From contig WGLV01000055.1 of NCBI GenBank assembly GCA_016125385.1, positions 36,695-100,694 of the forward strand: 64,000 bases of DNA. Reading direction: 5' to 3'. A program made the position numbers and the translations under genes. Shown here piece by piece: positions 2,574 through 52,324 of this stretch. The notes under the pieces were generated by a model. The model saw only the letters and a program-made list of their open reading frames with translations, made no database searches and was not told where the DNA came from. The DNA is from a bacterium. GTDB lineage: Bacteria > Hinthialibacterota > Hinthialibacteria > Hinthialibacterales > Hinthialibacteraceae. Position 1 is the first letter of the stretch. Each line of letters opens with the position of its first letter.

Positions 2574-5500
2574 GTGCGTTATTACGCGCCTTCTATTGTA
2601 TTGTTCGCCATCTTCGCCTCAACGTTCAGCTGGGGGCAACCCGTCATCAACGAAATCATGTACAACTCGTCCGTCGATGGGCTGGAGTATATCGAGTTGT
2701 ACAACCCCGGCCCTGACGCCGCCGATTTGACCGGCTGGACGCTGAAAGATAACGTCAATCAGCATGAGTTCAAATTCACGTCCGGCGCCAGGATTAACGC
2801 GGACGCGTATTACGTCGTGACGGATCACGCCAGTCTCTTTCAACAGACGTATGGCGTCAAAGCCGATCAGGACGGCGTTTCTTTTAACTTTTCCAATTCA
2901 GGGGACGCGGTACGCCTGTACAACGCAAGCAAGACGCTCATCGAGTCAGTTGAATACGACGACAACCCGCCGTGGCCCGAAGAAGCGGATGGAGTGGGGC
3001 CTTCTCTTGAACGACGGAACCCCAGAGCGCCCGCCAATCTCCCTCAGTCATGGGCCGCATCAACGGGCCAGGGTACGCCCGGCAAGCGTAATTCCACGTA
3101 TACCGCTCAACTCGAACCACTGATCTCCGAGATCGACCACTATCCCAGGCTTCCAGCGCCCGGCGAGGACGTCACGGTCACCGCGCGCGTCACCGATATC
3201 GAAAACCAGGTATCGTCGGTTCGCCTGTATTACGGGATGAACCGGGGGACGACCTACACAGCCGCGGCGATGTACGATGACGGACAGCATGGCGACGGTG
3301 AAGCGAACGACGGCGTCTATGGAGCCACGATTTCAGGCGGAAGCACGGGAGACATCCTGCGATTTTACGTTCAGGCGCGAAACACGGATAACCTGACAGC
3401 GTTATCGCCCGCCGATGGGCCGGACCTGCCCTGCATGACCGTCTTCGCTCGCCCCGTCACGGGTGAAAGCGTTTCATTTCTTCAGGTCGTCATGCGGCCC
3501 GAAGTCAATCAGGATTTTCTGGCGCGATACCAAACCGACGAATATTTTCCCGCGACATTTTATGATGGCGACAACGTGTATTATCAGGTTCAGATTCGCC
3601 ATCGCGGGCGTTCTAGAATTCAGAACGGGCGCTTTAAAATCAAATTTCCCCAAAGTCAGTTGTACCGTGGAAAGATCAGACGGCTGAATTTCAACGGAAC
3701 CGACACGGCGACGATCATTCGTGAATATCTCAGTTTTCAGTTGTACCAGGACGCCGGGTTACCCAACATGGAAACCGAACTGGTCCGGCTGCATATCAAC
3801 GGAGAATCAACACGCGGAACGCCCTACCGAGTGTGCATCGAAAATCCGGATTCGGCGTTTCTTCAACGGCGTGATTATTTTCTGCGCGATGATGGAAATC
3901 TATACAAAACCACACTGGACGGGACGCCGCAAAACAAGGCGACGTGGCGATACATCGGCGACGACCCCGCGCTGTATAGCGGGTGTTACATTAAACAGAC
4001 GAATGAAGAAGAAGCCGATTACAGCGATGTGATTCGCTTCTGCAAAACGCTGGAAGAGTCGGAGCCGTGGGAGCCCGATTTTCAATCCAAGGTGTATTCT
4101 GTCTTGAATACCGACGATTTCATCCGCTGGATGGCGGTTTCAGCCTGCGTGGCGCATTGGGATTCCCCCTTCACGGATCACGGCCAGAATTACATATTGT
4201 ACAACAACCCCGCTACAGGTCAGTTTCACGTGCTTGCCTGGGACCTCAACGGAACGTTCAATTACACATCCAATCAAAACGATCTGAACTACCGCAAACT
4301 GTATACCCACATTCGTTCGACCAAGTTGCCCGCCATCAATAAAATACTCAGCCATCCGGTTTTCGGCGCACAGTATTACCGCGAAATCGATCAGCTGATG
4401 AACTCTCTGTTCTCGCAGAGTTCGATGGACGCGCGCATCGACCGCGCGCGGGATCAATTGAAATTATCAAACAGTTCCGTCAGTTTTTTAAAGACCTACG
4501 TGCGGCAGCGCAACATCGACATGGCGAACTGGATCAATCACGATCAGGGCGTGGCTTTTATTACGGAACCCGCCTATCAGGCGAACATCAAGGACGTGTA
4601 TCGCTATCGCGCCACAGCGGTCGACTATCGCGCCAATCAACCAGTGACGTACTCTTTAAGCCAAAGCCCCGGCTGGTTAAGCGTGGATGAAAAAAGCGGC
4701 GAGTTATTCGGCGTCCCCACGGAGGGAGGCGAGTTCCCGGTGAGGCTCGACGCGAAGACCAAAGGCGGAGTCACCATCTCTCAAACTTTCACGATCGCCG
4801 TGGAGGATTCTCTGCCCCGGTTGCTGGTCAATTTCAACGAACCGGGAAGCGCCATTCAGGACCATAGCACGTTTCAAAATAACGGAACCCTGCGAGGAAG
4901 CGCGAGCAAGACGACCGGCCGTCTGGGCAACGGCGTCATTCTCTCCTCCAACGCATATGCAACGATTCCACAAGATGATTCACTGAACCTGACCGGGGCG
5001 ATCACGGTTGAAGCCTGGATCCGGCCTAATTCGATCTCCAACGGAAACCCGACCATCATCACCAAGGGCAATACCGACGAATTCAATTATACGCTCATGC
5101 TTGGATACGGCCCCTGGAACTGGGACGCGATGGAACCCTGTTTCATGCCTCATCGTTTTGATATTGAAAATCGCGTGTACTACGGCCGCAAAGAAATCGA
5201 AGCGCGTCTGCAAAACAGGCAGTGGGTGCATATCGCGGGGACGTACGATTCGAGTCAGGAACTCGTTGGAGTGTACGCCAACAACTACCGGATCGTCAAA
5301 AGCGCCGCGCGTTGCGAAATGGTGGTCAACACTTCTCAACTCTCCATCGGCGTGAGCGGAAGTCTTGGTTTTCAAGGCGTTGTTGACGACATCAAGATTC
5401 TCCCGTTCGCCAAATCGGCGTTCGCGGCGGGGTTATGCCTGTCGAGCGTGGACGCCGCGGCCGTTTCATCCGCGCAACAACGGATTTCACTTTCACTTTC

Positions 5501-6206
5501 TGAATACCGCGACGACGCCGTCGATACCGGCGGTTTCTGCCTGTACGCCGAGCCAAACGGTGAATGGTTAAAACTACCCAGCCAGCCGCTTAGACCGGGA
5601 CAAACCGTTTCGTTCTGGCTCGACGATCTCGGGCTCGAAACACCGTTAGGCGACAGCGGATCGATCAGTCTCTACCCCATAAATTCATTCGGAGACTCCG
5701 CCAAAGAAACCATCCTCGATTACGCGGCGTGGGGCGCTCCCGCCGCCATGAACGAACCGGCGGTCAGTGCGGGCGTCTGGCTTCCCGGCCGGGCGATTGC
5801 ATTGAATGGCGGCGCTCCCAAAACGCTTTCGCTCAAACAATTCGCCGATAACGATGACATGGATGAAGACTGGCAGGCGCTTCCACAGCAACTGGAGGGT
5901 CCTGTATTGAGTGCGTTCCAGGTCGAAAACGGCGCGGCGGCCATCAGCCATCCCAACGTCACGCTCAACCTGACCGCAGGACAATCAAATGCGCCGAAAA
6001 CCATGCGGATTTCCAATTCGCCAGTCTTCACCGACGAGTGGAAGACGTATTCAAAAACCGCAAACTGGACGCTCTCGCCAGGAGACGGGATAAAAACCGT
6101 CTACATCCAGGTCGCGGATGGTAATGGCGAGAGGTCGCCAGTCTATACTGATACCATTGAATTACGCGCCGACACCATGATTCAACAATGGCGGCGTATA
6201 CAATAA
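2574..6206 (+). CDS. Secreted CotH-kinase-like protein with lamin-tail (LTD) and LamG-like domains
   Basis: Signal peptide; LTD (VINEIMYNSSVDGLEYIELYNPGPDAADLTGWTL); CotH-like core (RHRGRSRIQNGRFKIKFPQSQLYRGKIRRLNFNGT ... LAWDLNGTF); LamG-like (ITVEAWIRPNSISNGNPTIITKG). Confidence 0.82.
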   Translation: MRYYAPSIVLFAIFASTFSWGQPVINEIMYNSSVDGLEYIELYNPGPDAADLTGWTLKDNVNQHEFKFTSGARINADAYYVVTDHASLFQQTYGVKADQDGVSFNFSNSGDAVRLYNASKTLIESVEYDDNPPWPEEADGVGPSLERRNPRAPANLPQSWAASTGQGTPGKRNSTYTAQLEPLISEIDHYPRLPAPGEDVTVTARVTDIENQVSSVRLYYGMNRGTTYTAAAMYDDGQHGDGEANDGVYGATISGGSTGDILRFYVQARNTDNLTALSPADGPDLPCMTVFARPVTGESVSFLQVVMRPEVNQDFLARYQTDEYFPATFYDGDNVYYQVQIRHRGRSRIQNGRFKIKFPQSQLYRGKIRRLNFNGTDTATIIREYLSFQLYQDAGLPNMETELVRLHINGESTRGTPYRVCIENPDSAFLQRRDYFLRDDGNLYKTTLDGTPQNKATWRYIGDDPALYSGCYIKQTNEEEADYSDVIRFCKTLEESEPWEPDFQSKVYSVLNTDDFIRWMAVSACVAHWDSPFTDHGQNYILYNNPATGQFHVLAWDLNGTFNYTSNQNDLNYRKLYTHIRSTKLPAINKILSHPVFGAQYYREIDQLMNSLFSQSSMDARIDRARDQLKLSNSSVSFLKTYVRQRNIDMANWINHDQGVAFITEPAYQANIKDVYRYRATAVDYRANQPVTYSLSQSPGWLSVDEKSGELFGVPTEGGEFPVRLDAKTKGGVTISQTFTIAVEDSLPRLLVNFNEPGSAIQDHSTFQNNGTLRGSASKTTGRLGNGVILSSNAYATIPQDDSLNLTGAITVEAWIRPNSISNGNPTIITKGNTDEFNYTLMLGYGPWNWDAMEPCFMPHRFDIENRVYYGRKEIEARLQNRQWVHIAGTYDSSQELVGVYANNYRIVKSAARCEMVVNTSQLSIGVSGSLGFQGVVDDIKILPFAKSAFAAGLCLSSVDAAAVSSAQQRISLSLSEYRDDAVDTGGFCLYAEPNGEWLKLPSQPLRPGQTVSFWLDDLGLETPLGDSGSISLYPINSFGDSAKETILDYAAWGAPAAMNEPAVSAGVWLPGRAIALNGGAPKTLSLKQFADNDDMDEDWQALPQQLEGPVLSAFQVENGAAAISHPNVTLNLTAGQSNAPKTMRISNSPVFTDEWKTYSKTANWTLSPGDGIKTVYIQVADGNGERSPVYTDTIELRADTMIQQWRRIQ

Positions 6207-7522: not shown

Positions 7523-9748
7523 TTACTCCAGCGTAAACCGCGCTTTCTTGCAATCGCTGGAGCTGGTTCCAACAAAGACTTCAAACTCGCCGGGTTCGGG
7601 TTGAAATTTCATGTCCTCCGTCCAGAAGGCGAGATCGCCGCTGTCGAGCGTGAATTCGACGGTTTTCGATTCGCCGGGATTCAGATGAATCTTGTCGAAA
7701 CCCCGCAGTTCCTTCACCGGCTGGGCAACGCTGCCCACCAGATCGCGAATGTAGAGCTGAACGACTTCGTCTCCCATCACGGAGCCTGTATTTTTCACAT
7801 CGACTGATACGGTCAGCGTATGGTTGATGTTGATCGTTTCCGCATTGAGACGCGGAGCTGAATATTCATACGTTGTGTAGCTTAAACCATAGCCGAACGG
7901 ATAAAGCGGTTCGTTGGGGCAATCAATGTATTTGGATACGTATGGGACGTCTTGAGGCGGGCGTGGCCGGCCCGTATTGAGATGATTGTAGTAAACGGGA
8001 ATCTGTCCCACGGCGGCGGGAAATGAGATCGGCAGCTTTCCGCTGGGGTTGTAATCGCCGAATAGTACATCGGCGATGGCGTGACCGCCCATCGTGCCGA
8101 GCTGCCACGCGTTGACGATGGCGGGCACGTGTTCGGCGCACCAGTCAAGCACCAGCGGACGCCCGGTCATGAGCACCATCACCACCGGTTTGCCAGCTTT
8201 TACCACCGCTTTGACCAGATCAAGTTGATCGCCGGGCAAGCCGATATGAGCTCGGCTTTTGGATTCGCCCGACATGTCGCCGTTCTCACCCACAACCAGA
8301 ATCACGCAATCGGCTTCAGCCGCGGCTAAAGCCGCGCGGTCGATCAACTCAGGAGGGCAGACTCCATGATCCCTGCAACCGGGTTCATAGGTCACCACGG
8401 TTTGAGTTGAAACTTTCGCCTTTACGCCTTCAAGGGGAGTGACGACTTCTTCATTTTTGCCCTGCGCGGGCCATGACCCCATCATGTCTTCAAATTTTTT
8501 GCTGTCGGCCAATTGGCCAATGACGGCGATCTTTTCGATGTTTTTCTTTAATGGAAGAAGGCCGCCTTCGTTTTTCAACAGAACGATGGATTCACGCGCC
8601 ACTTCACGCGCCGCCTGAAGATGCTCGTCCGACAAGGTGACTTTTTCCTTGCGGGCCGGGTCGATGTATTTGTATGGATCATCGAACATACCCAGTTCAT
8701 ACTTCACTCGCAGGACGCGGCGCACGGCGTCATCCACCCACTCTTCAGGAATCTCACCCTTGCTGACCAGTTCGCCGAGATAATCGAAATAGGCTTTGGA
8801 TTCCATATCCATGTCAGAGCCTGCAGCGATGGCGAGCTTTGCGGCCTCACGATTATCTTCGGCGACTCCGTGGATCACCATTTCACCGAATGAGTTCCAG
8901 TCAGAGACTACGAAGCCCTGGAAATTCCATTCGCCTTTGAGCACCTGCTTGACGAGAAACTTGTTTCCACTGGCGGGCATACGATCGAGAACATTGAAGG
9001 CGTTCATCAGGGTGGCGACCCCCGCGTTCACCGCCGCGTGAAACGGCGGAAGGTAGACCTCGCGCATCACGCGTTCGGAGACATCGACGGTATTGTAGTC
9101 ACGTCCCCCTTCCGCCGCGCCGTACCCAGCGAAGTGTTTGGCGCAGGCGATGATGGTGTCGGAACGGCTGAGGTCATCGCCCTGGAATCCATGAACGCGC
9201 GCCTCAGCGATGCGTGAGCCCAGGTACGTGTCTTCTCCCGCGCCTTCCATCACCCGGCCCCAACGGGGATCGCGGGCGATATCGACCATCGGAGCAAAAG
9301 TCCAATGCAATCCCGACGCGGAGGCCTCAATCGCCGCAATGCGCGCCGAACGTTCGATCGCCTCCAAATCCCAGCTGGCGGCTTCCGCGAGCGGGATGGG
9401 GAAAATGGTACGGTAGCCGTGAATTACATCATGCGCGTACAACAAGGGGATGCCGAGACGCGATTCTTCAACAGCGATTTTTTGCAGCGACTTCTGGTAA
9501 TCCAGATCGACGATGTTCAGAAACGATCCGATTATCCCCGAACGAACTGATTCCTCCAGATCGATGCGCCGGCCGTCCTGAGTCCCCGTTGCGTAGCCGC
9601 CGTTCAACTGATTGAGTTGCCCCACTTTTTCGGCGAGGTTCATTCTGGCCAGCAGATCGTCGACTTTCGCTTCGATACGTGGATCGTGCGCGAAAGCGGC
9701 GGCCGCGAACAATGGAGTCAGCAGGAGAGTGAGTAGCATTCGTTTCAT
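7523..9748 (-). CDS. Glycoside hydrolase family 3 beta-glucosidase/xylosidase-like, secreted
   Basis: GFVVSDWNSFGEM nucleophile motif, KHFAGYGAAEGGRDYN, fibronectin-III-like C-terminus (VKNTGSVMGDEVVQLYI); start refined to MKRMLLTLLLTPLFAAAAFA. Confidence 0.93.
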   Translation of the reverse strand: MKRMLLTLLLTPLFAAAAFAHDPRIEAKVDDLLARMNLAEKVGQLNQLNGGYATGTQDGRRIDLEESVRSGIIGSFLNIVDLDYQKSLQKIAVEESRLGIPLLYAHDVIHGYRTIFPIPLAEAASWDLEAIERSARIAAIEASASGLHWTFAPMVDIARDPRWGRVMEGAGEDTYLGSRIAEARVHGFQGDDLSRSDTIIACAKHFAGYGAAEGGRDYNTVDVSERVMREVYLPPFHAAVNAGVATLMNAFNVLDRMPASGNKFLVKQVLKGEWNFQGFVVSDWNSFGEMVIHGVAEDNREAAKLAIAAGSDMDMESKAYFDYLGELVSKGEIPEEWVDDAVRRVLRVKYELGMFDDPYKYIDPARKEKVTLSDEHLQAAREVARESIVLLKNEGGLLPLKKNIEKIAVIGQLADSKKFEDMMGSWPAQGKNEEVVTPLEGVKAKVSTQTVVTYEPGCRDHGVCPPELIDRAALAAAEADCVILVVGENGDMSGESKSRAHIGLPGDQLDLVKAVVKAGKPVVMVLMTGRPLVLDWCAEHVPAIVNAWQLGTMGGHAIADVLFGDYNPSGKLPISFPAAVGQIPVYYNHLNTGRPRPPQDVPYVSKYIDCPNEPLYPFGYGLSYTTYEYSAPRLNAETININHTLTVSVDVKNTGSVMGDEVVQLYIRDLVGSVAQPVKELRGFDKIHLNPGESKTVEFTLDSGDLAFWTEDMKFQPEPGEFEVFVGTSSSDCKKARFTLE

Positions 9749-9790
9749 GTTGGTTTCTCCATTTCGATGCAGTGCGGCGATGAGCAATCA

Positions 9791-12109
9791 TCAGCCAGCG
9801 GGATTCAGTTGACCGTCCAGCGTAATGATTTGCCCTGCATCCATGGCGATCTCTTTTTGCAGATCGCCGTAACGCAGATGCGCCGTTCCGCCCGCGAGAG
9901 ATTTTACGCTCGCCTTTACCAGTTTTCCGTCTTTCCACTCCAGCCCGATTTCAAAGGCGCCGCGCGCGCGCAGACCCGAAATGGAGCCGCTTTTAAGCCC
10001 GCCGGGTAACGCGGGCAGCAGGTTGATTTCGCCGGTATGGCTCTGCAACAGCATTTCGGTGATGCCCGAGGTTCCGCCAAAGTTGCCATCGATCTGGAAG
10101 GGCGGATGCGTATCGAACATATTGGGCAGCGTTCCGGTCGAGATAAGCTCGGTCAGCATCAGGTATGAATGATCGCCGTCGAGCAGCCGCGCCCAGAAAT
10201 TGACCTTCCACGCCTTGCTCCAACCGGTTCCGCCGTCGCCGCGATGTTCGAGCGATACCCGGGCGGCTTTGGCGAGGTCCGGCGTATTTAATGGAGTGAT
10301 CTCATTACCGGGATGAAGCCCCCACAAGTGTGAAACATGGCGGTGTTGATTGTTGGGATCGTCTTTATCTTCAAGCCATTCCTGTAATTGCCCGAATCGG
10401 CCGATCTGATTCGGCGCGATGCGCGCTTTCATGTCAACAAGTTGGGCGCGCAGGTCCTCATCCACGCCGAGTATCTCGCTGGCCTGAATCACATTGGAAA
10501 ACAGGTTTCGTATGATCTGGTGGTCCATGGTGGGACCAGCGACCAGCCCGCCGTTTTCAGGCGAGTTGGAGGGCGTACTGATCAGCCAGCCGGTTTTGGG
10601 ATCTTCAACCAGAAAATCAACGAAGAACAGCGCCGCGCCCTTCATGACGGGATAAGCGCGATTTTCGAGGAATGCGCGGTCATGAGTAAACGCGTAATGC
10701 AGCCACAGGTTCTGACAGAGCCAGGCGCCGCCGGTCATCCAGATGCCGTGATTGGTATGGTTGATCGGCGCCGCGCCGCGCCAAATATCGGTATTATGAT
10801 GAAGAACCCATCCACGGCAGCCGTAATGAACGCGGGCGACTTTTCCACCGGTGATCACGAGGTCGTCGAGCATGTCGAACAGCGGATCGGCGCATTCAGA
10901 CAGGTTACACATCTCGGCCGGCCAGTAATTCATTTCGGTATTGATATTCACCGTCCATTTGCTATCCCACGGCGGCTGCAGTTCCTGATTCCAGATGCCT
11001 TGCAGGTTGGCCGGCTGGCTGCCCGGGCGTGAACTGGAGATCAGCAGATAGCGTCCGTACTGGTAATACAGGACTACAAGTTGCGGATCGAACTCTTCCG
11101 CGAATTTTTTGATGCGGACATTGGTGGGTTGATCGGCGGCGGGTGTGGAACCAAGGTCGAAATGAACCCGATCGAATAACGTTTGATAATCGGCGACATG
11201 CTCAGCTTTGAGTTGCTCGAACGATTTTCCTTCATTCAATTTCATATCCGCGAGGCAATGTTCCGCCGGAACTTCGCCGATATCGCGGAAATTTTTATAA
11301 CTGGTGGCGGCGGACAGGCGAAGCGTAACCGCGTCAGCGTTGTAGACCGTTGCGCCGTCATCCGTTACTCCCACTTCCCCGCCCTCTGGCGTAACGCTCA
11401 GCCATGATTCGAATCGCATGATATTTAGATTTTCGGGTGAAAATTTTGAATCGTCGCCGGAATCAAGACGTCCGTGGAACTTCAGCAACGCCCCATGTTC
11501 CGTCGCCGCGTTCTCGAATTTGACCGCCTTGTGAGGAGAGGTCAGCGAGACGCCCATCGTGATGGCGCCAGGTTTATCGGCGGAGATTCGCATCACGATG
11601 ATGTTGGCCGGGTAACTGGAGAAAATTTCACGCCGATAGGTAACACCGTTACACTCGTATTGAACCGTCGCAAGAGCGTTATCGAGATCAAGAGTCCGGA
11701 CGTAATTTTGTACGTTTTTGTGGTCGGGGAACGAAAGCAGCACGTCTCCGAAAGGCTGATACGATTCCTGATGAACCGGGCGGCTCATCATGTCCCATGC
11801 GGCGTCTTCCGCTTCTTTTTGTTTACCCTCAAAGAGAAGCTGGCGTACGCGGGGAAGCGCTTCAAGCGCTTTGGGATTGATATAATCGCGCGGGACGCCG
11901 GTCCAGAGCGTATCTTCGTTGAACTGAATGCGTTCCGATTCAACGCCGCCGAACACCATCGCGCCAAGGCGGCCGTTTCCGATTGGCAGCGCTTCGACCC
12001 ATACCTTCGCGGGTTCGGTGTACCAAAGTTGCATCGCATCGTTCGCCGGAAACGCGGCTGGAGCCAGCAAACCTGTCATGACGAGTAATAAACTTAAGAA
12101 TCGTTTCAT
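9791..12109 (-). CDS. Glycoside hydrolase family 95 (alpha-L-fucosidase/galactosidase-like), secreted
   Basis: WYTEPAKVWVEALPIGNGRLGAMVFGG; HHNTDIWRGAAPIN; STPSNSPENG; HPPFQIDGNFGGTSGITEMLLQSH; signal peptide. Confidence 0.93.
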   Translation of the reverse strand: MKRFLSLLLVMTGLLAPAAFPANDAMQLWYTEPAKVWVEALPIGNGRLGAMVFGGVESERIQFNEDTLWTGVPRDYINPKALEALPRVRQLLFEGKQKEAEDAAWDMMSRPVHQESYQPFGDVLLSFPDHKNVQNYVRTLDLDNALATVQYECNGVTYRREIFSSYPANIIVMRISADKPGAITMGVSLTSPHKAVKFENAATEHGALLKFHGRLDSGDDSKFSPENLNIMRFESWLSVTPEGGEVGVTDDGATVYNADAVTLRLSAATSYKNFRDIGEVPAEHCLADMKLNEGKSFEQLKAEHVADYQTLFDRVHFDLGSTPAADQPTNVRIKKFAEEFDPQLVVLYYQYGRYLLISSSRPGSQPANLQGIWNQELQPPWDSKWTVNINTEMNYWPAEMCNLSECADPLFDMLDDLVITGGKVARVHYGCRGWVLHHNTDIWRGAAPINHTNHGIWMTGGAWLCQNLWLHYAFTHDRAFLENRAYPVMKGAALFFVDFLVEDPKTGWLISTPSNSPENGGLVAGPTMDHQIIRNLFSNVIQASEILGVDEDLRAQLVDMKARIAPNQIGRFGQLQEWLEDKDDPNNQHRHVSHLWGLHPGNEITPLNTPDLAKAARVSLEHRGDGGTGWSKAWKVNFWARLLDGDHSYLMLTELISTGTLPNMFDTHPPFQIDGNFGGTSGITEMLLQSHTGEINLLPALPGGLKSGSISGLRARGAFEIGLEWKDGKLVKASVKSLAGGTAHLRYGDLQKEIAMDAGQIITLDGQLNPAG

Positions 12110-14548: not shown

Positions 14549-16501
14549 ATGAGCAATCAATCAATCGCCATCCTGTTCTTTACCGCCATTGTGGTTTCAT
14601 CCGGGGCGTTCGGCCAAACCGACTTTACCCTGGACCTGTTTAACCAGTCGATCCAATCGAACTGCGCCTATTGCCACGGAGGGGACGAACCGGCGGGTAA
14701 TCTGGTTTTGGAGCCGTTGGATTCCATAGAGACGATCTCCGATCAGGTCGACCAATGGCTGAAAGTATTGCATCGCGTCGAGGCGCGCGAGATGCCTCCG
14801 AAGTTCGTCCCCGCCCTGGATGATGAACACCGCTCCGAATTAACCCACTGGCTTAAACAGGCGATCGACGAGATGGTGTGCGGCGATGCCCAGGTTCCCG
14901 GCCCGGCGCCGGTGCGTCGATTGAACCGGAACGAGTACGCCGCGACCATTCGCGATTTGCTGGGCATCCATTTCAATGCGGGACACGATCTGCCGGAGGA
15001 CGGCGCCGGAGGCGCGGGATTCGACAACGCCGCTGAAACGCTGTTTATCTCGCCCGTTCATCTGGAACGTTATTTCGAAGCAGCCCGGGAGGCGCTTGAT
15101 TACGCCGTTGCGGACGCGGGCGCTCGCCGGTTGCTTTTCATCGCGCAACCGGGAGATTCGCTGAGTGAAACGGACGCGGCGCGGACGATTCTGGAGCGGT
15201 TCGCCTCGCGCGCGTTTCGCCGTCCCGTCAAAGAGGATGAGCTGCAGCCCCTGCTCGCGCTGTTTCAGGCCGCGTTCAAACGGGACGGTTCCTTTGAAGA
15301 AGCGGTGTTGTACGCCATGCGCGCGGTGTTAATCTCGCCGAATTTTCTATTTCTTATTGAAACGCCGAACACCACCAGTATGGTCAGGCCGGTTAACGAC
15401 TATGAACTCGCCTGTCGCCTTTCGTATTTTTTATGGTCGAGCATGCCCGACGATGAGCTATTCGCTCTTGCGAAAAATCAGGAGTTGCATCGGGCGGGCG
15501 TTTTGGAAGAACAGATCGATCGCATGCTGTCCGAACCCAGCATCGGACGCCGTTCGCGCTCTCTCGAAGACCTGAAGTCGCAGGAATTCGCGCAGAATTT
15601 CGTCAGCCAATGGCTGGGTACGCGCGAACTGGGCCGTAATCTCAAACCCGATCAACGGCTGTTCAAGCAGTACAATCAGGACCTTGAAGCCTCAATGCGG
15701 TATGAACCCGTCTATTTTTTCCACCGCATCGTCGACGAGAATCTGTCTCTGTTGAATCTGATCGATTCGGATTTCACCTACGTCAGCGAGCGGTTGGCGA
15801 GATTGTACGGTATCGACAAACAGGTTGAAGTGAATAATCAGCAGATGAATTTCATCCATTTACCCGCCGGCAGTCATCGCGGCGGCGTAATGACGATGGC
15901 GGGCGTTCTGGCAGTGAGTTCGTACCCTCATCGCACCAGTCCGGTATTACGCGGCAAATGGGTTCTTGATTCATTACTCGGGACGCCGCCTCCCCCACCA
16001 CCACCCAACGTGCCTCCGTTGCCCGAAGTCGACGATCAACCCACGCCGACCACCGTGCGCGAACGCCTGACGCAGCATCGTCAGAATCCGGTATGCGCTT
16101 CCTGTCACGACCGCATCGATCCTATTGGATTCGGGCTGGAAAATTTCGACGCGATCGGACGATGGCGAACGGAAGATCACGGGAAACGGATCGACGCGTC
16201 AGGAACCCTGCCGGACGGGCGAACATTCGACGGGCCGGAAGAACTGAGAAAAGTTCTGATGGATAACAAAGACCTGTTCATCCGCAATCTGACCGTCAAA
16301 ATGATGAGCTACGCTCTCGGACGAGGGCTGACGCTGGAAGACCAGTGTACGGTCGACATGATTGTTGAAACTCTGCAATCGAATGATTACAAAGCGAGAA
16401 CCCTGATCGCCGAAATCGTAAAAAGCATCCCGTTCCGTTACCGGCGCGCTCATGAGGCTCCGGTCGGTTATGGCGATGACGTTGTTGTTTTATCAGACTG
16501 A
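14549..16501 (+). CDS. DUF1592/DUF1588/DUF1585-type planctomycete-like cytochrome protein
   Basis: Signal peptide; CAYCH and CASCH c-heme motifs; RLNRNEYAATIRDLLGI; FLFLIETP; HRTSPVLRGKWVLDSLLGTPPPPPPPNVPPL; CHDRIDPIGFGLENFDAIGRWR. Confidence 0.9.
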   Translation: MSNQSIAILFFTAIVVSSGAFGQTDFTLDLFNQSIQSNCAYCHGGDEPAGNLVLEPLDSIETISDQVDQWLKVLHRVEAREMPPKFVPALDDEHRSELTHWLKQAIDEMVCGDAQVPGPAPVRRLNRNEYAATIRDLLGIHFNAGHDLPEDGAGGAGFDNAAETLFISPVHLERYFEAAREALDYAVADAGARRLLFIAQPGDSLSETDAARTILERFASRAFRRPVKEDELQPLLALFQAAFKRDGSFEEAVLYAMRAVLISPNFLFLIETPNTTSMVRPVNDYELACRLSYFLWSSMPDDELFALAKNQELHRAGVLEEQIDRMLSEPSIGRRSRSLEDLKSQEFAQNFVSQWLGTRELGRNLKPDQRLFKQYNQDLEASMRYEPVYFFHRIVDENLSLLNLIDSDFTYVSERLARLYGIDKQVEVNNQQMNFIHLPAGSHRGGVMTMAGVLAVSSYPHRTSPVLRGKWVLDSLLGTPPPPPPPNVPPLPEVDDQPTPTTVRERLTQHRQNPVCASCHDRIDPIGFGLENFDAIGRWRTEDHGKRIDASGTLPDGRTFDGPEELRKVLMDNKDLFIRNLTVKMMSYALGRGLTLEDQCTVDMIVETLQSNDYKARTLIAEIVKSIPFRYRRAHEAPVGYGDDVVVLSD

Positions 16502-16590
16502 CCGGTCAAAATCGTGGTAAAGTATACGGAACCAATCATCAGCGCCGCCGTCACAACTCCATGCGATGAACTCTGGCTGGAGGCGAATTC

Positions 16591-17937
16591 ATGAGTATCA
16601 AATCGCGCCCGATCTCGCGCAGAACACTGTTGAAAGGCGCGGGCGCCGCATTAGCCCTGCCCTGGCTCGAAGCCATGTCGCCGGCACGCGCGCACGGCGC
16701 TGAATTCACTCCCAAACGCATGGCCGCGATGTTCATGCCCAATGGCGTACATCCCGGCATGTGGACGCCCGAGAGTGAAGGCCGGGATTTCAAAATATCG
16801 CCCACGCTGGAACCGATGGCCGATCTGAAAGACGATCTGCTGGTGCTGACCAACCTGTGGAACCAGGGAAGCAACACCGGCGACGGCCACTACGTCAAAG
16901 CTGCGGGTTACCTGACCTGCACGACGATCAACAAAACCGTCGGCGTCGATCTGAACAGCAACGGGATCTCAATGGATCAGGCAGCGGCGCAACGGATCGG
17001 CTCGCAAACGCCTTTGCCGTCGCTCGAGCTCGGTACCGAGCCGGTGCAGACCGGCGTTGACTCCAACGTGGGCTATACGCGAGTATACGGCGCCCATATC
17101 GCATGGCGGACTCCCACGAGCCCATTGGCGAAAGAGATCAACCCCCGGCTGGTGTACGAGCGTCTGTTCCGTGCGAGCCGGCAGGACCCCGACGACGCCC
17201 GGCAGGACAAACCGCTGCTCGACCTTGTATTGGCGGACGCCAACCGGCTGCGCGGCAAACTGGGTTCAGCCGATCAACAACGCATGGATGAATACCTGCA
17301 TTCGGTACGCGCATTGGAAACCCGCATTGAGCGCGCCAGCCGTCAGGATGAACATCAATGGACGCCGCGCGCCGACGTCGAAAAGGCAGCCCCCCGCCCC
17401 GCTGGAATTCCGCCCGAACACGCTGAACACGTGCGGCTGATGATGGACATGATGATTCTCGCGTTTCAAACCGACACGACGCGCATCTGCACCTTCATGT
17501 TTGGCAACTCGGTCAGCAATATCAATTTTTCGTTTCTCGACGGGGTTGATGGCGCCCATCATTCCACTTCACACCATCAGAAAAACGAAGACATGCTGAG
17601 GCAATACCAACTCATCAACCGCTGGCACGTCGAACAATACGCCTATATGGTCAGGCGCCTGAAAGAAATTCGTGAAGGCGAGCAATCACTGCTCGACAAT
17701 TCAATGGTTCTGTTCGGCTCGGGGCTGCGCGACGGCGACAGCCACAATCCACACAATCTGCCCATGCTGCTGGCGGGCCGAGCGGGCGGACGCATCGCGA
17801 CGGGCCAGCATTTGAAATACCATGAAGACACGCCGCTGGCGAATCTGTACGTTTCCATGCTCGACGCCTTCGATACTCCAGTGGAGCGCTTCGCCGACAG
17901 TACAGGCCCCCTGCCTGGCGTATTAGCGACGGTGTGA
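16591..17937 (+). CDS. DUF1552 domain-containing protein with Tat-like signal
   Basis: ISRRTLLKGAGAALALPWLEAM; FMPNGVHPGMWTPESEG; TSHHQKN; directly follows DUF1592 gene, the usual partner. Confidence 0.9.
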   Translation: MSIKSRPISRRTLLKGAGAALALPWLEAMSPARAHGAEFTPKRMAAMFMPNGVHPGMWTPESEGRDFKISPTLEPMADLKDDLLVLTNLWNQGSNTGDGHYVKAAGYLTCTTINKTVGVDLNSNGISMDQAAAQRIGSQTPLPSLELGTEPVQTGVDSNVGYTRVYGAHIAWRTPTSPLAKEINPRLVYERLFRASRQDPDDARQDKPLLDLVLADANRLRGKLGSADQQRMDEYLHSVRALETRIERASRQDEHQWTPRADVEKAAPRPAGIPPEHAEHVRLMMDMMILAFQTDTTRICTFMFGNSVSNINFSFLDGVDGAHHSTSHHQKNEDMLRQYQLINRWHVEQYAYMVRRLKEIREGEQSLLDNSMVLFGSGLRDGDSHNPHNLPMLLAGRAGGRIATGQHLKYHEDTPLANLYVSMLDAFDTPVERFADSTGPLPGVLATV

Positions 17938-18491: not shown

Positions 18492-18530
18492 AACGAAAAA
18501 ACGCCTCCGCTGCCGGAGGCGTTTTTCGTT
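18492..18530. terminator. Bidirectional terminator between hicBA and the convergent Gfo/Idh/MocA gene
   Basis: aacgaaaaaACGCCTCCG-ctgc-CGGAGGCGTtttttcgtt. Confidence 0.85.
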
Positions 18531-18547
18531 TCGTTACATTGAAACGG

Positions 18548-19783
18548 TTACACGGTCGCGGTGGTCGCCGCTTCGTCGAGATGGGCTCGCTTGCCGTTTT
18601 TGTACGCCACGTTGGCGAGATGGGGTCCACAGACCGCGCTATGGCCCACTTCAACCGGCGCGTTGGGTTCCTTACGCGATTTGACGCACTCGATGAAGTT
18701 GTCAACGTGCGGCTGGCTGGGCAGATCGCCCTTGAAGTCGATGTGCGGTTTACCCGGAAAATCGCTGTCCTTGGGTTTGTCTTTATCAAGATAGACCTGA
18801 AAGCCGTTGCGGTGCAGGTGCATGGTTCCATCGACGCCCTGGAACATCACGTGCCACCAGTCGTAGTAATTGCTGGTGTAGTTGATCGTCCATGTGGCGA
18901 TGAAGTTTTTGTATTGCAGCGTGGTGGTGAACACGTCGGGCGTATCGGCGCCTTCCATCATCTTGATATAGCCGAAGCCGTCGCCAGCCAGCGGGGTTCC
19001 CTGATTGGCGTACCACTGAACCACGTCCATAATGTGCGTTCCCTGATCGTTCGAGATGCCCCCAGAGAAGGGCCAGAACACCCGCCAGTTACGAACATAT
19101 TTCGGCTGGAATTCAATATCCGTATGCGGCCACTGGAAGCGATCCCAGTCGATTTCATATCCGAGCGGCTTGTTATTCTGAGGACCTGACGAATTCCAGT
19201 TCCACTGCGCTTTCACGAAGGTAATGTCGCCCAGAACGCCGGAACGAACCACTTTCAGGCCTTCATGAATCAGGGGCGCGCTGCGGCGTTGCATGCCGAT
19301 CTGGACGATGCGGTCTGTCTTGCGCACTTCCTTGACCGCCCAGGCGCCTTCTTCGATCGAGTGAGACATCGGCTTTTCGCAATACACGTCCTTGCCCGCC
19401 TGCACGGCCGCCACCATCATGCGGCAATGCTGATGTTCGGGGGTTCCGATGACCACGGCGTCGATATCCTTGCGGTCGAGTAATTCATTGAAGTCGCGGT
19501 ATACGTCGATCTTGCCATCGTTATTCCGCTGGGCGTCTTTGACGCCCTGAGCGATACGGGGCTCGGAAACGTCGCAAATGGCGGCGAATTTGACGCCCTG
19601 ATGCTGATGCATGTTCATCACGGCGCGGCCACGGCCTCCGGAACCGATCAGCCCCATCACCAGATTATCATTCGCACCGAAGACGCGGTTGGATACGATC
19701 ATGGGCGCGGACATCGCGGCGCCCGCCGCCAGCGAGGCTTTGATCGCCCCTCGTCTTGTAAGCTGGTCATTCATCATCATTGC
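18548..19783 (-). CDS. Gfo/Idh/MocA family oxidoreductase, exported
   Basis: TRRGAIKASLAAGAAMSAPMIVSNRVFG signal; VMGLIGSGGRGRAVM; DVYCEKPMSHSIEEG. Confidence 0.9.
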   Translation of the reverse strand, partial: AMMMNDQLTRRGAIKASLAAGAAMSAPMIVSNRVFGANDNLVMGLIGSGGRGRAVMNMHQHQGVKFAAICDVSEPRIAQGVKDAQRNNDGKIDVYRDFNELLDRKDIDAVVIGTPEHQHCRMMVAAVQAGKDVYCEKPMSHSIEEGAWAVKEVRKTDRIVQIGMQRRSAPLIHEGLKVVRSGVLGDITFVKAQWNWNSSGPQNNKPLGYEIDWDRFQWPHTDIEFQPKYVRNWRVFWPFSGGISNDQGTHIMDVVQWYANQGTPLAGDGFGYIKMMEGADTPDVFTTTLQYKNFIATWTINYTSNYYDWWHVMFQGVDGTMHLHRNGFQVYLDKDKPKDSDFPGKPHIDFKGDLPSQPHVDNFIECVKSRKEPNAPVEVGHSAVCGPHLANVAYKNGKRAHLDEAATTATV

Positions 19784-19831
19784 CTCCAGGGTTTTGAATA
19801 TTGAACCGCAAGCGAAACTGGGCACGCTCGC

Positions 19832-20551
19832 TTATTTCAAGACTTTGATGCGGATGTTTTTCCACCGGATCTGTTTACCGACTTTCTTTTCATCGTTGCC
19901 CACGCTGTGAACCTGTAGCGCAATGAAACCTGTATGCGTCATGTCGTCGGTCAGGTCGGCGGCGGGGACGCCATTGATCCAGGTTTTGATGGAATCGCCC
20001 TTCGCTTCGATGCGGTAGTGGTTCCAGTCGTTATGCTTGAAGGCGGCGCGCGCTTCTTTGTACTTGTCGCCTTCGAGATTGTTGAGCCAACCCCGACGGC
20101 CTTCATCATAGATGCCCGCCGACCAGGCGCGATCCGATGGATCGATTTCGACCTGATAGCCATGAACGCGGTCCGCGGCGACTTTGATTTCCTTGATCTT
20201 TCCATCATCGCCGACGGTTACGTAGGTTTTGGGCGTTCCATAAACATTGCTGCGGATCTGGATTCCCGAGTTCAACAGGTCGTCCACACGATAATCCACT
20301 TCGAGAATAAAATTGGTGTAGAGCTTATTGGTGCAGAGAAAACTGTTGCTGGTATTAGGGACTGACGTACCGACAATGACGCCGTCTTCCACCGTGTATT
20401 CGGCTTTTCCTCCGTGCTGTTCCCAGCCTTCCAGATTCTTGCCGTTAAACAGATCGACGAAGCCGTCGTCATCGGCGGCCATCGCCGGCGCGGCCGCGAT
20501 CAGCAGGGCGGCGCAAAACAAAAACAGGCGACTCAAATCACGTTTCATCAT
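19832..20551 (-). CDS. DUF1080 (3-keto-disaccharide hydrolase family) secreted protein
   Basis: Signal peptide; [76 protein letters not shown]. Confidence 0.92.
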
Positions 20552-20787
20552 GTCCTCCAAAATAGATGGATTGATTGTGCAATACGCGAGGGATGCATCA
20601 TTTTCATGTAATGTTTGTAACATAATACCTCGCCAATGTTAAGCGATCACCGCGATAAGCGTAGCACACTCCATTCAACGATTCATTTCGCCGACGATTA
20701 CGCGCATCAGGGCTTTTCAACCTTCACCCCAGCACATGCGGCGTGAAATAATGTTCGCGTTCAAAACCATCCAGGAAGGAAACCGAT

Positions 20788-22080
20788 ATGAACATTCGTC
20801 TGACATCTTTGGCGTTTCTCATGCTCATCCTGACGACGCCGGCAGGCTATACCGGCGATTCGCTGAACGCGAAGGAACTCGGCGTCAGCGGCGACGGCAA
20901 AACCGACGACGGACCGGTGTTGCAAAAGATTTTGCAACAGGCGGCGGATCAGGGAGGCGGTGAAGTCTATCTACCCGCTGGACAGTATCGCATTGAGGAT
21001 AGCATCCAGATTCCATCCGGCGTCACATTGCGGGGCGTATGGGAAGCTCCGCATCACGCCGATCAGGTATGGGGCAGCGTTTTGCTGGCGGTGGGGCATG
21101 AAGGTGAAGAAGACGGGCCCGCATTGATACAACTATCCGCCAACTCATCGGTGCAGGGGCTGACAATATTTTATCCCAATCAGACCATGGAAGACATCAA
21201 AGTGTATCCGTGGGCGATTGAAGGCGAGGGCATGCACGGCAGCGTTATTGACGTTACGCTGACCAACGCGTATCAGGGCGTCTCATTCGGACGCAAGCGG
21301 AATGAATTGCACCTTATTCGCAACGTCTATGGATGCTGCCTGCGGCGCGGCGTGTTCATCGATCAATGCACTGACATCGGCCGCATTGAAAACGTGCATT
21401 TCAACCCGCATTACTGGGCGCGCGCGAAAATGAACGAGATCGAAGGCGCCAAGCCTCCCCGTGGGATGCGCGATCTGATCTCTTACCTGAACGCGAATTG
21501 CGAAGCGTTTATTTTCGGGCGAACCGACTGGGAATACGTGCTTAATACTTTCGCGTATGGATTCGATAAATGCTACAAGTTTATCGAAACCGAACACGGC
21601 GCCTGCAATGGCAACTTTCTCGGTATCGGCGCCGACGGCGGCAACCACGCGGTTTGGATGGAAGCCACACAACCGCCCGGCCTGCTCATCACCAATGGAG
21701 AATTCGTCACAATGGCGGGCAAGGAATCGATTCAGATCGTCGCGACGGAATCGTACAAAGGCGTGGCTCAGTTCAACAACTGCTCGTTCTGGGGCCCGAC
21801 CGACATGTGCGCCTCCATCAAAGGAACGGGATTCGTTTCGTTCCAGCAGTGCAATTTCGTACAATGGGGTCTTCAAGGCAAAAAGAGTCCCGCTTTAAAT
21901 TTTGAAAGCGGGAATGCGGCGGTGCATTCGTCATTCTTCCAGGACGCCAAACCGCATATTCTTCTGGGCCCCAAGGTGAGCAGCGCTGTGATTTCAGGAA
22001 ACCAGTTCAAGGGTGATATTCAGATTGATAACCAGAGTCAGGGTGACGTACAGATCATGGGGAACGCCTCAATTCATTAA
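20788..22080 (+). CDS. Right-handed beta-helix protein (pectate-lyase-3/GH28-like), secreted
   Basis: AKELGVSGDGKTDDGPVLQKILQQAADQGGGEVYLPAGQYRIEDSIQIPSGVTLRG. Confidence 0.82.
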   Translation: MNIRLTSLAFLMLILTTPAGYTGDSLNAKELGVSGDGKTDDGPVLQKILQQAADQGGGEVYLPAGQYRIEDSIQIPSGVTLRGVWEAPHHADQVWGSVLLAVGHEGEEDGPALIQLSANSSVQGLTIFYPNQTMEDIKVYPWAIEGEGMHGSVIDVTLTNAYQGVSFGRKRNELHLIRNVYGCCLRRGVFIDQCTDIGRIENVHFNPHYWARAKMNEIEGAKPPRGMRDLISYLNANCEAFIFGRTDWEYVLNTFAYGFDKCYKFIETEHGACNGNFLGIGADGGNHAVWMEATQPPGLLITNGEFVTMAGKESIQIVATESYKGVAQFNNCSFWGPTDMCASIKGTGFVSFQQCNFVQWGLQGKKSPALNFESGNAAVHSSFFQDAKPHILLGPKVSSAVISGNQFKGDIQIDNQSQGDVQIMGNASIH

Positions 22081-49548: not shown

Positions 49549-50427
49549 ATGGCGTTCATCACCACAACCAGCAACCGCCGCACGATTTTGAAGCAATTGA
49601 TGTTCGGTGCGGCGGCCCTTACGTTGGCGCGTCCGGCGTTCTCTCAGGATTCAACCCGCTGGGCGTGGCTGTCAGACACTCACGTTCCCCAGGACCCCAC
49701 GAATGAATATCGAGGATTCAAACCGTACGACAATATCCAGACCGTGGTGGCGGATATTCTGAAATACAAACCGGAAGGCGCCATGATCTCGGGCGATCTC
49801 GCCCGGCTGGAAGGTTTTCCGGAAGATTACGCCGCGTTCAGAAAACACGTTGAAGCCATGATGGACGCGATGCCGGTCTGCATGGGACTGGGCAATCACG
49901 ACCACCGCGCCAACTTCATCGCCGCGATGAAAGACCGCATCGTGAACGAACAAAGCGTGCCCGGTAAGCATGTGGTGGTCGTCGATACCGGTCCGGCGCG
50001 CATGATTATGCTCGATTCACTGATGTTCACCAACAAGACCCCCGGCCTGTTGGGCAAGGCTCAACGCACCTGGCTGGAGGACTACCTGCGGCCGAGCGGC
50101 GACAAACCGGTCATTCTGTTTGTGCATCACACCTTGGGAGACGGCGACGGCGAACTGCTTGATTCGGAACTCTTTCTGCGATCCGTCAGTCGGATCCCGT
50201 CAGTAAAAGCGGTCGTATACGGCCACTCGCACGTATACCGCTTTGACACGCTGAACGGCGTTCATCTCATCAATATTCCCGCCGTCGGCTACAATTTCCG
50301 TGATCAGGATCCGGTTGGATGGATTGAGGCTTCGGTCACAAGACATGGCGCCGACCTGACGCTGCACGCCATCGCGGGCGCGAAAGACGGCGATGGCAAG
50401 ACGACATCGCTTGAGTGGCGGGCCTGA
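49549..50427 (+). CDS. Calcineurin-like metallophosphoesterase, exported
   Basis: WLSDTHVPQ, MISGDLARLEGFPEDY, MGLGNHDHR, FVHHTLGDGDG, VVYGHSHVYRFD. Confidence 0.88.
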   Translation: MAFITTTSNRRTILKQLMFGAAALTLARPAFSQDSTRWAWLSDTHVPQDPTNEYRGFKPYDNIQTVVADILKYKPEGAMISGDLARLEGFPEDYAAFRKHVEAMMDAMPVCMGLGNHDHRANFIAAMKDRIVNEQSVPGKHVVVVDTGPARMIMLDSLMFTNKTPGLLGKAQRTWLEDYLRPSGDKPVILFVHHTLGDGDGELLDSELFLRSVSRIPSVKAVVYGHSHVYRFDTLNGVHLINIPAVGYNFRDQDPVGWIEASVTRHGADLTLHAIAGAKDGDGKTTSLEWRA

Positions 50428-50456
50428 CGCTTCAGCCGCTCGAAAAAAGGAACGAC

Positions 50457-51446
50457 ATGACGTACGACTTTCTCCATCGGCCCCGGCGGCTCCGGATGAA
50501 GACTCGGATGCGCGACATGGTGCGCGAAAACCACCTTCGCCACGACGATCTGATCTACCCGCTGTTCGTCACGTATGAAGCGGATGCGAAAAAACCGATC
50601 GCGTCCATGCCGGGATGCTTTCAACACGGACTCAACCGGATAGGCGAGGTTTGCCGCGAAATCGAGGGGATGGGTATTCCCGCCGTCATCCTCTTTGGCT
50701 TGCCCGAGCACAAAGACGAACGCGGTTCATCGGCCTGTGCGCCGGACGGCGTCATCGCAAAAGCGGTCGCATCCATCAAACAAGCGTGTCCTTCGCTCAT
50801 CGTGATGACGGATGTGTGTTTGTGTGAATACACTTCACACGGTCATTGCGGCGTATTAAAAGGTGAAGAGATTCTCAACGATGAAACGGTTGAAATTCTT
50901 TGCCGTGAGGCGGTAACGCACGCCAACGCGGGCGCCGACGTCATCGCGCCGTCGGACATGATGGATGGCCGCGTCGCCGCCATTCGCGAGGCGCTGGACG
51001 CGGCGAGTCACCTCTATACGCCGATCATGGCGTACTCGGTGAAATACGCGTCGGGATTCTACGGCCCGTTTCGTGACGCGGTCGAATCGGCGCCATCGTT
51101 CGGCGACCGCCGCTCGCATCAGATGGACCCGCCCAACCGGCGTGAGGCGTTGCGCCAGGCGCGCATTGATCTGAACGCGGGGGCCGACGTGCTGATGGTG
51201 AAGCCCGGCCTGCCCTACCTCGATATCATCCGCGATCTGAGAAATGAATTCGATGTTCCGCTCGCGGTGTATAATGTCAGCGGCGAGTACTCGATGCTGA
51301 AAGCGGCTGCTGAAAAAGGCTGGCTCGACGAGAGGCGAACCGTGATGGAGACCATGCTGGCGTTCAAGCGCGCCGGCGCGGACCTCATCCTGACCTACCA
51401 CGCGCTCGACCTGGCGCGTTGGCTGAACGAAGGGGACGGAGCATGA
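50457..51446 (+). CDS. hemB: Porphobilinogen synthase (delta-aminolevulinic acid dehydratase)
   Basis: RPRRLRMKTRMRDMVRENHLRHDDLIYPLFV; DVCLCEYTSHGHCG (Zn-type Cys triad); APSDMMDGRVAAIREAL; YSVKYASGFYGPFRDA; MVKPGLPYLDIIRD. Confidence 0.97.
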   Translation: MTYDFLHRPRRLRMKTRMRDMVRENHLRHDDLIYPLFVTYEADAKKPIASMPGCFQHGLNRIGEVCREIEGMGIPAVILFGLPEHKDERGSSACAPDGVIAKAVASIKQACPSLIVMTDVCLCEYTSHGHCGVLKGEEILNDETVEILCREAVTHANAGADVIAPSDMMDGRVAAIREALDAASHLYTPIMAYSVKYASGFYGPFRDAVESAPSFGDRRSHQMDPPNRREALRQARIDLNAGADVLMVKPGLPYLDIIRDLRNEFDVPLAVYNVSGEYSMLKAAAEKGWLDERRTVMETMLAFKRAGADLILTYHALDLARWLNEGDGA

Positions 51447-52324
51447 GCGTAAACCGCCGGCGTTTTCTGACCACCAGCGCAATGGCGGCGGCCGCCGCCA
51501 CGGCCCAAGCTGGCGCAAACAACATGTCGAAGCCGGACAGCGCCGCCATCTGCCGCATCTCATCGCGCGAATTCGTGATCCCCGGCGATACCTTCGCCGA
51601 TAAACTCGAGATCATGCAGACCTGGGGCTTCAACGCCATCGAACTCGACGGGGCGCGGCTGCCTGAACGCCGTCAGGAAATTCGCGACGGGCTTCGCGGC
51701 AGCGACCTCGGCGTAAGCGCGGTATGCTCGGGATACGACGGCGTATTGTGTCATGAAGACCCCGCCGAACGCCGCAAAGCGATCGACTCGGTGAAACGCA
51801 TTCTTGACGCCGCCGCTGAATTTCACCCGACCGGTCTCATCATCGTGCCCGCCTTCAACGGTCAGACGAAATTGTGGTACGTACCCGCGCGTGAGGCGCT
51901 GATCTCGCTGTTGCCCGAACTCGGCGAACACGCCCATCAATGTGGAACGCAGGTGCTATTGGAGCCGCTCAACCGCAACGAGTCATGGTATCTGCGATTT
52001 CTCGCCGACGCCGCCTCCATCTGCCGTGAGATCAATCACCCCGGCGTAGCCATGATGGGTGACTTCTTTCATATGGGCATTGAAGAACCCAGCGACTACG
52101 CCGCCTTCATCGCCGCGCGCGACTACCTGGGCAACGTTCATCTCGGCAGCAGGCAACGATACCTGCCCGGGCAGGATGAACGCGACTTCCGCCCCGGGTT
52201 CCGCGCACTGAAAGAGATCGGCTACAAAAAATTCATCAGCCTGGAGTGTTTTCCTCAAGTCGATCCGAAAAAGGAAATTCCCGTCTCGCTGGCGTTTTTA
52301 CGCCAGCAATGGCGTGAAGCCTGA
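51443..52324 (+). CDS. Sugar phosphate isomerase/epimerase (xylose isomerase-like TIM barrel) with Tat signal
   Basis: RRRFLTTSAMAAAAATAQA; LEPLNRNESWYLR; VAMMGDFFHMGIEEPSDYAAFIAARDYLGNVHLGS; FISLECFP; ATGA overlap with hemB. Confidence 0.87.
   Translation: MSVNRRRFLTTSAMAAAAATAQAGANNMSKPDSAAICRISSREFVIPGDTFADKLEIMQTWGFNAIELDGARLPERRQEIRDGLRGSDLGVSAVCSGYDGVLCHEDPAERRKAIDSVKRILDAAAEFHPTGLIIVPAFNGQTKLWYVPAREALISLLPELGEHAHQCGTQVLLEPLNRNESWYLRFLADAASICREINHPGVAMMGDFFHMGIEEPSDYAAFIAARDYLGNVHLGSRQRYLPGQDERDFRPGFRALKEIGYKKFISLECFPQVDPKKEIPVSLAFLRQQWREA

Follow-up and report, generated by a model that had tools for sequence, protein, structure and literature searches.

The window analysed here, a stretch of 64,000 nucleotides from a bacterium of the family Hinthialibacteraceae (contig WGLV01000055.1, positions 36,695 to 100,694), contains a gene for a secreted DUF1080 protein followed on the same strand by one for an exported Gfo/Idh/MocA oxidoreductase, and the two are read, at a probability of about one half, as a two-gene operon for extracytoplasmic oxidative glycoside cleavage in which the oxidoreductase has been exchanged. 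Both genes lie on the minus strand. The DUF1080 gene (ORF 19832-20623) matches the Pfam profile PF06439 with 152.9 bits (cut-off 26.8), and the oxidoreductase gene (ORF 18548-19825) matches PF01408 with 74.6 bits (cut-off 24). The likely start of the DUF1080 gene is at 20551, with GGAGG just 5' of it, which yields a secreted single-domain protein of 239 residues (19832-20551), placed by Pfam, AlphaFold2 and Foldseek in the subfamily of the 4JQT N-terminal domain. Its translation begins with a probable Sec signal peptide (20477-20551), modelled at lower confidence as a helix of residues 3-19. The Gfo gene likely starts at 19780, 19777 or 19774, again with GGAGG just 5', and encodes about 410 residues (18548-19780) with the Tat-type N-terminus MNDQLTRRGAIKASLAAGAAM; the signal region (TRRGAIKASLAAGAAM...VFG, with TRRGAIK) covers 19672-19780, and its twin arginine is invariant in the alignment. 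Depending on the Gfo start, the genes are 51-57 bp apart, as against about 48 bp in the preliminary description, whose order of a secreted DUF1080 protein and a signal-bearing Gfo protein downstream on the same strand was borne out. The 51-bp gap (19781-19831) holds the GGAGG ribosome-binding site, and no terminator was found on its inspection. Just past the Gfo stop lies a perfect 13-pair stem with A-run and T-run flanks (18497-18526), a probable bidirectional terminator. On the other side, the divergent intergenic region 20552-20787 is, from the gene layout, a probable promoter region common to the DUF1080 gene and a pectate-lyase-like gene (20788-22080); it contains no strong sigma-70 match. 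The pectate-lyase-like gene was considered as a conserved partner and rejected, its orthologues being located on other contigs. Given this layout, the short gap and the terminator-like stem, the DUF1080 and Gfo genes probably form one operon, and the same features favour oxidative cleavage by the pair.

The oxidoreductase next to DUF1080 differs between the window and its relatives. Two genomes from other genera of the same family (G001 and G002) carry the two nearest DUF1080 orthologues, 68-69% identical to the window protein, and in both the next gene on that strand, 49-57 bp further on, is a Gfo gene, an order that also favours oxidative cleavage. The Gfo proteins at these sister loci are only 29-32% identical to the window Gfo and fall in a separate clade of the tree. 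That of G001 scores 362 bits over residues 11-414 of 436 against NCBIfam NF058561 (BT_2158_fam, glycoside 3-dehydrogenase; equivalog cut-off 750 bits), a further point in favour of the same reading. The window Gfo reaches 113 bits against this cut-off of 750, over its N-terminal half only and below dozens of other Gfo genes of its genome; it is not a close relative of the characterised glycoside 3-dehydrogenases. Orthologues of the window Gfo (60-80%) are present in G002, G003, G004 and G006-G008, and none adjoins a DUF1080 gene. The low score and the scattered orthologues both weaken the oxidative cleavage reading, and conserved linkage of this particular orthologue pair, on which the preliminary description had staked its pathway, failed: the Gfo orthologues lie elsewhere and another Gfo subfamily occupies the slot. 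No orthologue of the sister Gfo was found in the window genome (best match 43%), which holds five near-full-length BT_2158-like genes elsewhere (350-485 bits). Outside the module, a gene for a cytochrome-type PSCyt/PSD protein and a DUF1552 (HXXSHH) gene (14549-17937, plus strand) serve as syntenic markers. Their orthologues on contig C39 of G001 are 59% and 71-73% identical, respectively, and are separated from the DUF1080-Gfo pair there by about 7-10 kb; at E below 1e-100, G001 was the one relative found to have the DUF1552 orthologue. The window and G001 thus seem to share a related neighbourhood in which different proteins occupy the Gfo slot, and the presence of these neighbours near a DUF1080-Gfo pair in G001 again favours oxidative cleavage. 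The best reading of the sequences is that the oxidoreductase partner of DUF1080 was exchanged between the window lineage and the sister genera; its direction, loss in the window lineage as opposed to the others, we infer tentatively from two genomes against one. The idea that the window locus retains one part of an ancestral DUF1080-Gfo1-Gfo2 operon, as seen in Flavobacteriaceae, and the sister loci another was rejected, because in the tree the flavobacterial Gfo1 and Gfo2, the sister Gfo and the window Gfo each branch in a clade of their own.

It is possible, although on the unlikely side, that the DUF1080 protein is a 3-keto-glycoside eliminase/hydratase supplied with substrate by a BT2158-like dehydrogenase encoded elsewhere, and that the adjacent Gfo, placed there by a recent rearrangement, serves another pathway. 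The five BT_2158-like genes would provide such a dehydrogenase, and the orthologues of the window Gfo away from DUF1080 agree with it, including that of G002, whose neighbour is a Tat-signal PF01261 protein. However, the chance that a random gene beside DUF1080 is a Gfo gene on the same strand is only about 1% (73 Gfo genes / roughly 4,500 genes x 0.5, the gene number being estimated), and the window Gfo occupies exactly the position of the Gfo of the sister genera, at a similar gap. In G002 (L027:5717-7946) the window-Gfo orthologue comes about 50 bp after the PF01261 gene, a layout which may point to PF01261 as the usual partner of this Gfo clade. As a separate observation, the window encodes an LTD/CotH/laminin-G protein at 2574-6206; its 59% orthologue in G004 (L125:3175-6813) closely adjoins a BT_2158-like Gfo whose G001 and G002 orthologues are the partners of DUF1080.

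The AlphaFold2 model of the DUF1080 protein (pLDDT 93.8) has the beta-sandwich of the solved PF06439 members. The best Foldseek match is 4JQT (E 3e-24), followed by 3OSD, 8TDA and 8RR2 at about 5e-10; 9FBE and CBM66 were also matched. In sequence the protein groups with the N-terminal domain of 4JQT (E 5e-65), to which it is 52% identical when the folds are aligned, and lies far from the characterised enzymes, to which it is weakly similar (E about 1e-4, in the N-terminal part). 4JQT (BT3469), a functionally unassigned structure that was released in 2013, shares the subfamily and the same Q-x-E and Q-x-H; its first domain is fused to a further DUF1080 domain, one with E-x-Q and Q-D-H, whereas the window protein corresponds to the first domain only. 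The residues Q133, E135, H215, N94, R100 and E150 are invariant in 36/36 diverse relatives. The DUF1080 profile alignment was used without the ThuA-fused row L067; fusions of DUF1080 with a ThuA-like domain, in either order, were recognised by eye at L012, L014 and L067. In the profile alignment His215 (LQVH, codon 19907-19909) aligns to the histidine of QDH and is the equivalent of the His-to-Asn site of 9FBE, which reads QDNG where the deposited sequences of 8RR2, 8TDA and 3OSD read QDHG. An H275N variant of the Bacteroides thetaiotaomicron lyase was reported in 2026 to be hydration-deficient (PMC13273386). BT2157 is 290 residues long (PMC11003636), and since this length makes the numbering fit, the Asn site of 9FBE was taken as H275 and, from the alignment, His215 as the putative equivalent of this hydration histidine. 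The match of the fold to BT2157 and 8RR2/9FBE, together with the position of His215, favours oxidative cleavage.

The window protein thus has in common with 8RR2/9FBE, BT2157 (3OSD, 8TDA) and Alistipes AL2 (8V31) the PF06439 beta-sandwich, an NSG motif and the histidine of Q-x-H, but it differs from them in two features of the active site. In two independent alignments Gln133-Val-Glu135 (20147-20155) takes the place of the E-x-Q seen in the characterised enzymes (within PEYQVLD), with the order reversed to Q-x-E, and the loop of about 20 residues ahead of Q-x-H is absent. Of the catalytic residues of characterised members, named in the preliminary description as decisive, the hydration histidine is therefore kept (36/36), while the E-x-Q pair is reversed and the loop missing; the structural comparison likewise confirmed the fold but placed the protein in another subfamily, the 4JQT N-domain type. 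By these alignments the active site is related but rearranged, and the protein belongs to an uncharacterised subfamily with an invariant Q-x-E. The name 3-keto-disaccharide hydrolase is a loose one that says more than the evidence does, eliminase/hydratase being the term used for the solved relatives. The reversed E-x-Q and the missing loop, and likewise the lack of a PF01261 gene in the operon, weaken the case for oxidative cleavage. The first two would also fit a single-domain DUF1080 protein acting as a non-catalytic carbohydrate-binding (CBM66-like) or altered beta-sandwich, with no 3-keto cleavage by the pair, as would the fold match to CBM66, which exceeds those to the enzymes once target length is taken into account (TMt 0.77 versus about 0.5). 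Such a role is improbable, however, as the six residues invariant in all 36 relatives suggest an active site, the hydration histidine is kept, and 4JQT and the enzymes give better E-values than CBM66 does, by sequence as well as by fold.

The coupling of the two families was determined in the 80 loci that encode the closest relatives of the window DUF1080. A same-strand Gfo gene is located directly downstream of 33/77 DUF1080 genes and of 4/351 other genes in the same loci. DUF1080 followed by Gfo is thus a real genomic arrangement, far above chance across phyla, and the excess supports the preliminary description and favours oxidative cleavage. The downstream-Gfo cases come almost wholly from two-domain DUF1080 proteins (33/53), mostly of Flavobacteriaceae. 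Single-domain DUF1080 relatives outside the family, mainly of Planctomycetota and Verrucomicrobiota, have a Gfo gene downstream in 0/26 cases, which weakens the reading, and because the window protein is single-domain the general coupling backs the window pair only indirectly. The genome totals 31 PF06439, 73 PF01408 and 31 PF01261 matches in 5.5 Mb; the families being so numerous, mere co-presence of DUF1080, Gfo and PF01261 genes in the window means little, and it is direct same-strand adjacency of DUF1080 and Gfo that is rare by chance. It is very unlikely that the two genes adjoin by coincidence and are functionally unrelated, for although both families are very numerous in this genome, they are strongly coupled in the collected loci, and the two closest orthologous loci show the same arrangement.

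Precedent for oxidative cleavage by the window pair is provided by several described proteins. BT2158 of B. thetaiotaomicron works in the periplasm as a glycoside 3-dehydrogenase (PMC11300592), and the BT2159-BT2156 operon serves to convert glucosinolates (PMC12385236). BT2157 was described as a 3-ketotrehalose hydrolase and CCNA_01705 was proposed to be a 3'-ketolactose hydrolase (PMC9007349). Planctomycetes are known to carry many DUF1080 genes, which have been connected with the breakdown of xanthan (PMC5673643). The window pair matches in outline a route of oxidation, elimination, hydration and reduction that is already known in gut bacteria. Like the BT2159-BT2156 operon, which belongs to a 3-keto pathway for glucosinolates and disaccharides, the window pair places an exported Gfo beside a secreted DUF1080 protein of the same fold with the hydration histidine kept; unlike it, the Gfo is not BT2158-like, the DUF1080 protein belongs to another subfamily (about 20% identity), and the pair stands alone as two genes rather than four. 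The window Gfo itself keeps the GSGGRG, EKP and GG...D.G.H..D motifs, and its AlphaFold2 model (pLDDT 79.8) resembles, by Foldseek, sugar and inositol dehydrogenases, DgpA and glucose-fructose oxidoreductase. With the 8TDF and 8TDH dehydrogenases, DgpA, and the glucose-fructose and aldose-aldose oxidoreductases it shares the Rossmann fold, EKP and D.G.H, but only 16-20% identity by fold alignment. No characterised member of its clade was found.

The gene pair, its signals, the fold, the conserved histidine, the statistical coupling of the two families and the change of partner are direct findings; by analogy with these systems we infer the chemistry, its C3 regiospecificity, the redox cycle and the nature of the substrate. 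The Gfo protein would fold with NAD(P) inside and then be exported by the Tat system, as is glucose-fructose oxidoreductase, in which NADP is tightly bound. Since the compartment that receives the enzyme has no free NAD, it would be expected to keep its cofactor bound and to run a closed redox cycle, as glucose-fructose oxidoreductase does. The exported enzyme would oxidise a sugar hydroxyl, presumably that at C3, after which the secreted DUF1080 protein would expel the aglycone by beta-elimination and/or hydrate the resulting 2-hydroxy-3-keto-glycal. The predicted product is a 3-keto sugar, reducible by the same or another oxidoreductase. The oxidoreductase slot is occupied by a BT2158-like glycoside 3-dehydrogenase in the sister genera and by a distant Gfo paralogue in the window lineage, and the exchange of partner may have altered the substrate or left C3 oxidation to one of the five BT2158-like enzymes encoded elsewhere. 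The oxidise-cleave-reduce pathway of the preliminary description thus survives in part: family coupling, gene order at the sister loci, fold and histidine agree with it, and the linkage of the pair, the Gfo type and the E-x-Q pair do not.

The other genes named in the preliminary description are present in the window: Gfo genes at 12965 and 28033, GH95, GH3, GH51, a Lactonase gene and a Tat-signal PF01261 gene at 51419-52324; the region around the pair is rich in glycosidase genes. For the glycosidases and the PF01261 gene there is no sign that they share the operon, and the layout gives no support for linking the pair to them. The DUF1080-Gfo operon contains no PF01261 gene, the nearest being 31 kb away behind hemB. 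This PF01261 gene overlaps the end of hemB (50415-51446), and its product is weakly similar to 5-keto-L-gluconate epimerase (111 bits, cut-off 300). The GH3 and GH95 genes (7523-12109, minus strand), about 3 bp apart, are a probable operon, perhaps for fucosylated glycans. Elsewhere in the window genome, contig C52 (L030:4247-8325) encodes PF01261, Gfo, PF01261 and two-domain DUF1080 proteins, all on one strand; its Gfo scores 333 bits to levoglucosan dehydrogenase. With the PF01261 component that the window pair lacks, this locus is a fuller candidate 3-keto module. On contig C48 (L033:4450-7409) a BT_2158-like Gfo gene is followed on the same strand, at a distance of about 1 kb, by a Tat-signal DUF1080 gene, and this Gfo (389 bits to BT_2158_fam) matches the characterised dehydrogenase better than does the window Gfo.

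Gfo-DUF1080 operons are already known in Bacteroides; what is new here is the exchanged oxidoreductase and the uncharacterised Q-x-E subfamily of DUF1080. Tentatively, this subfamily (the window protein and the 4JQT N-terminal domain) might be a distinct eliminase class for other 3-keto sugars or linkages with an interchangeable oxidoreductase partner, at least six separate Gfo clades occurring beside it across phyla, and the recent exchange seen here might reset its substrate range. Such genomes carry dozens of DUF1080 and of Gfo genes, nearly all of them unassigned. A locus in which the cleaving enzyme was kept and its oxidising partner replaced makes it possible to test directly whether oxidise-eliminate-hydrate modules are naturally interchangeable and which of them determines the substrate, and the Q-x-E subfamily, including 4JQT, is a clear target for enzymology.
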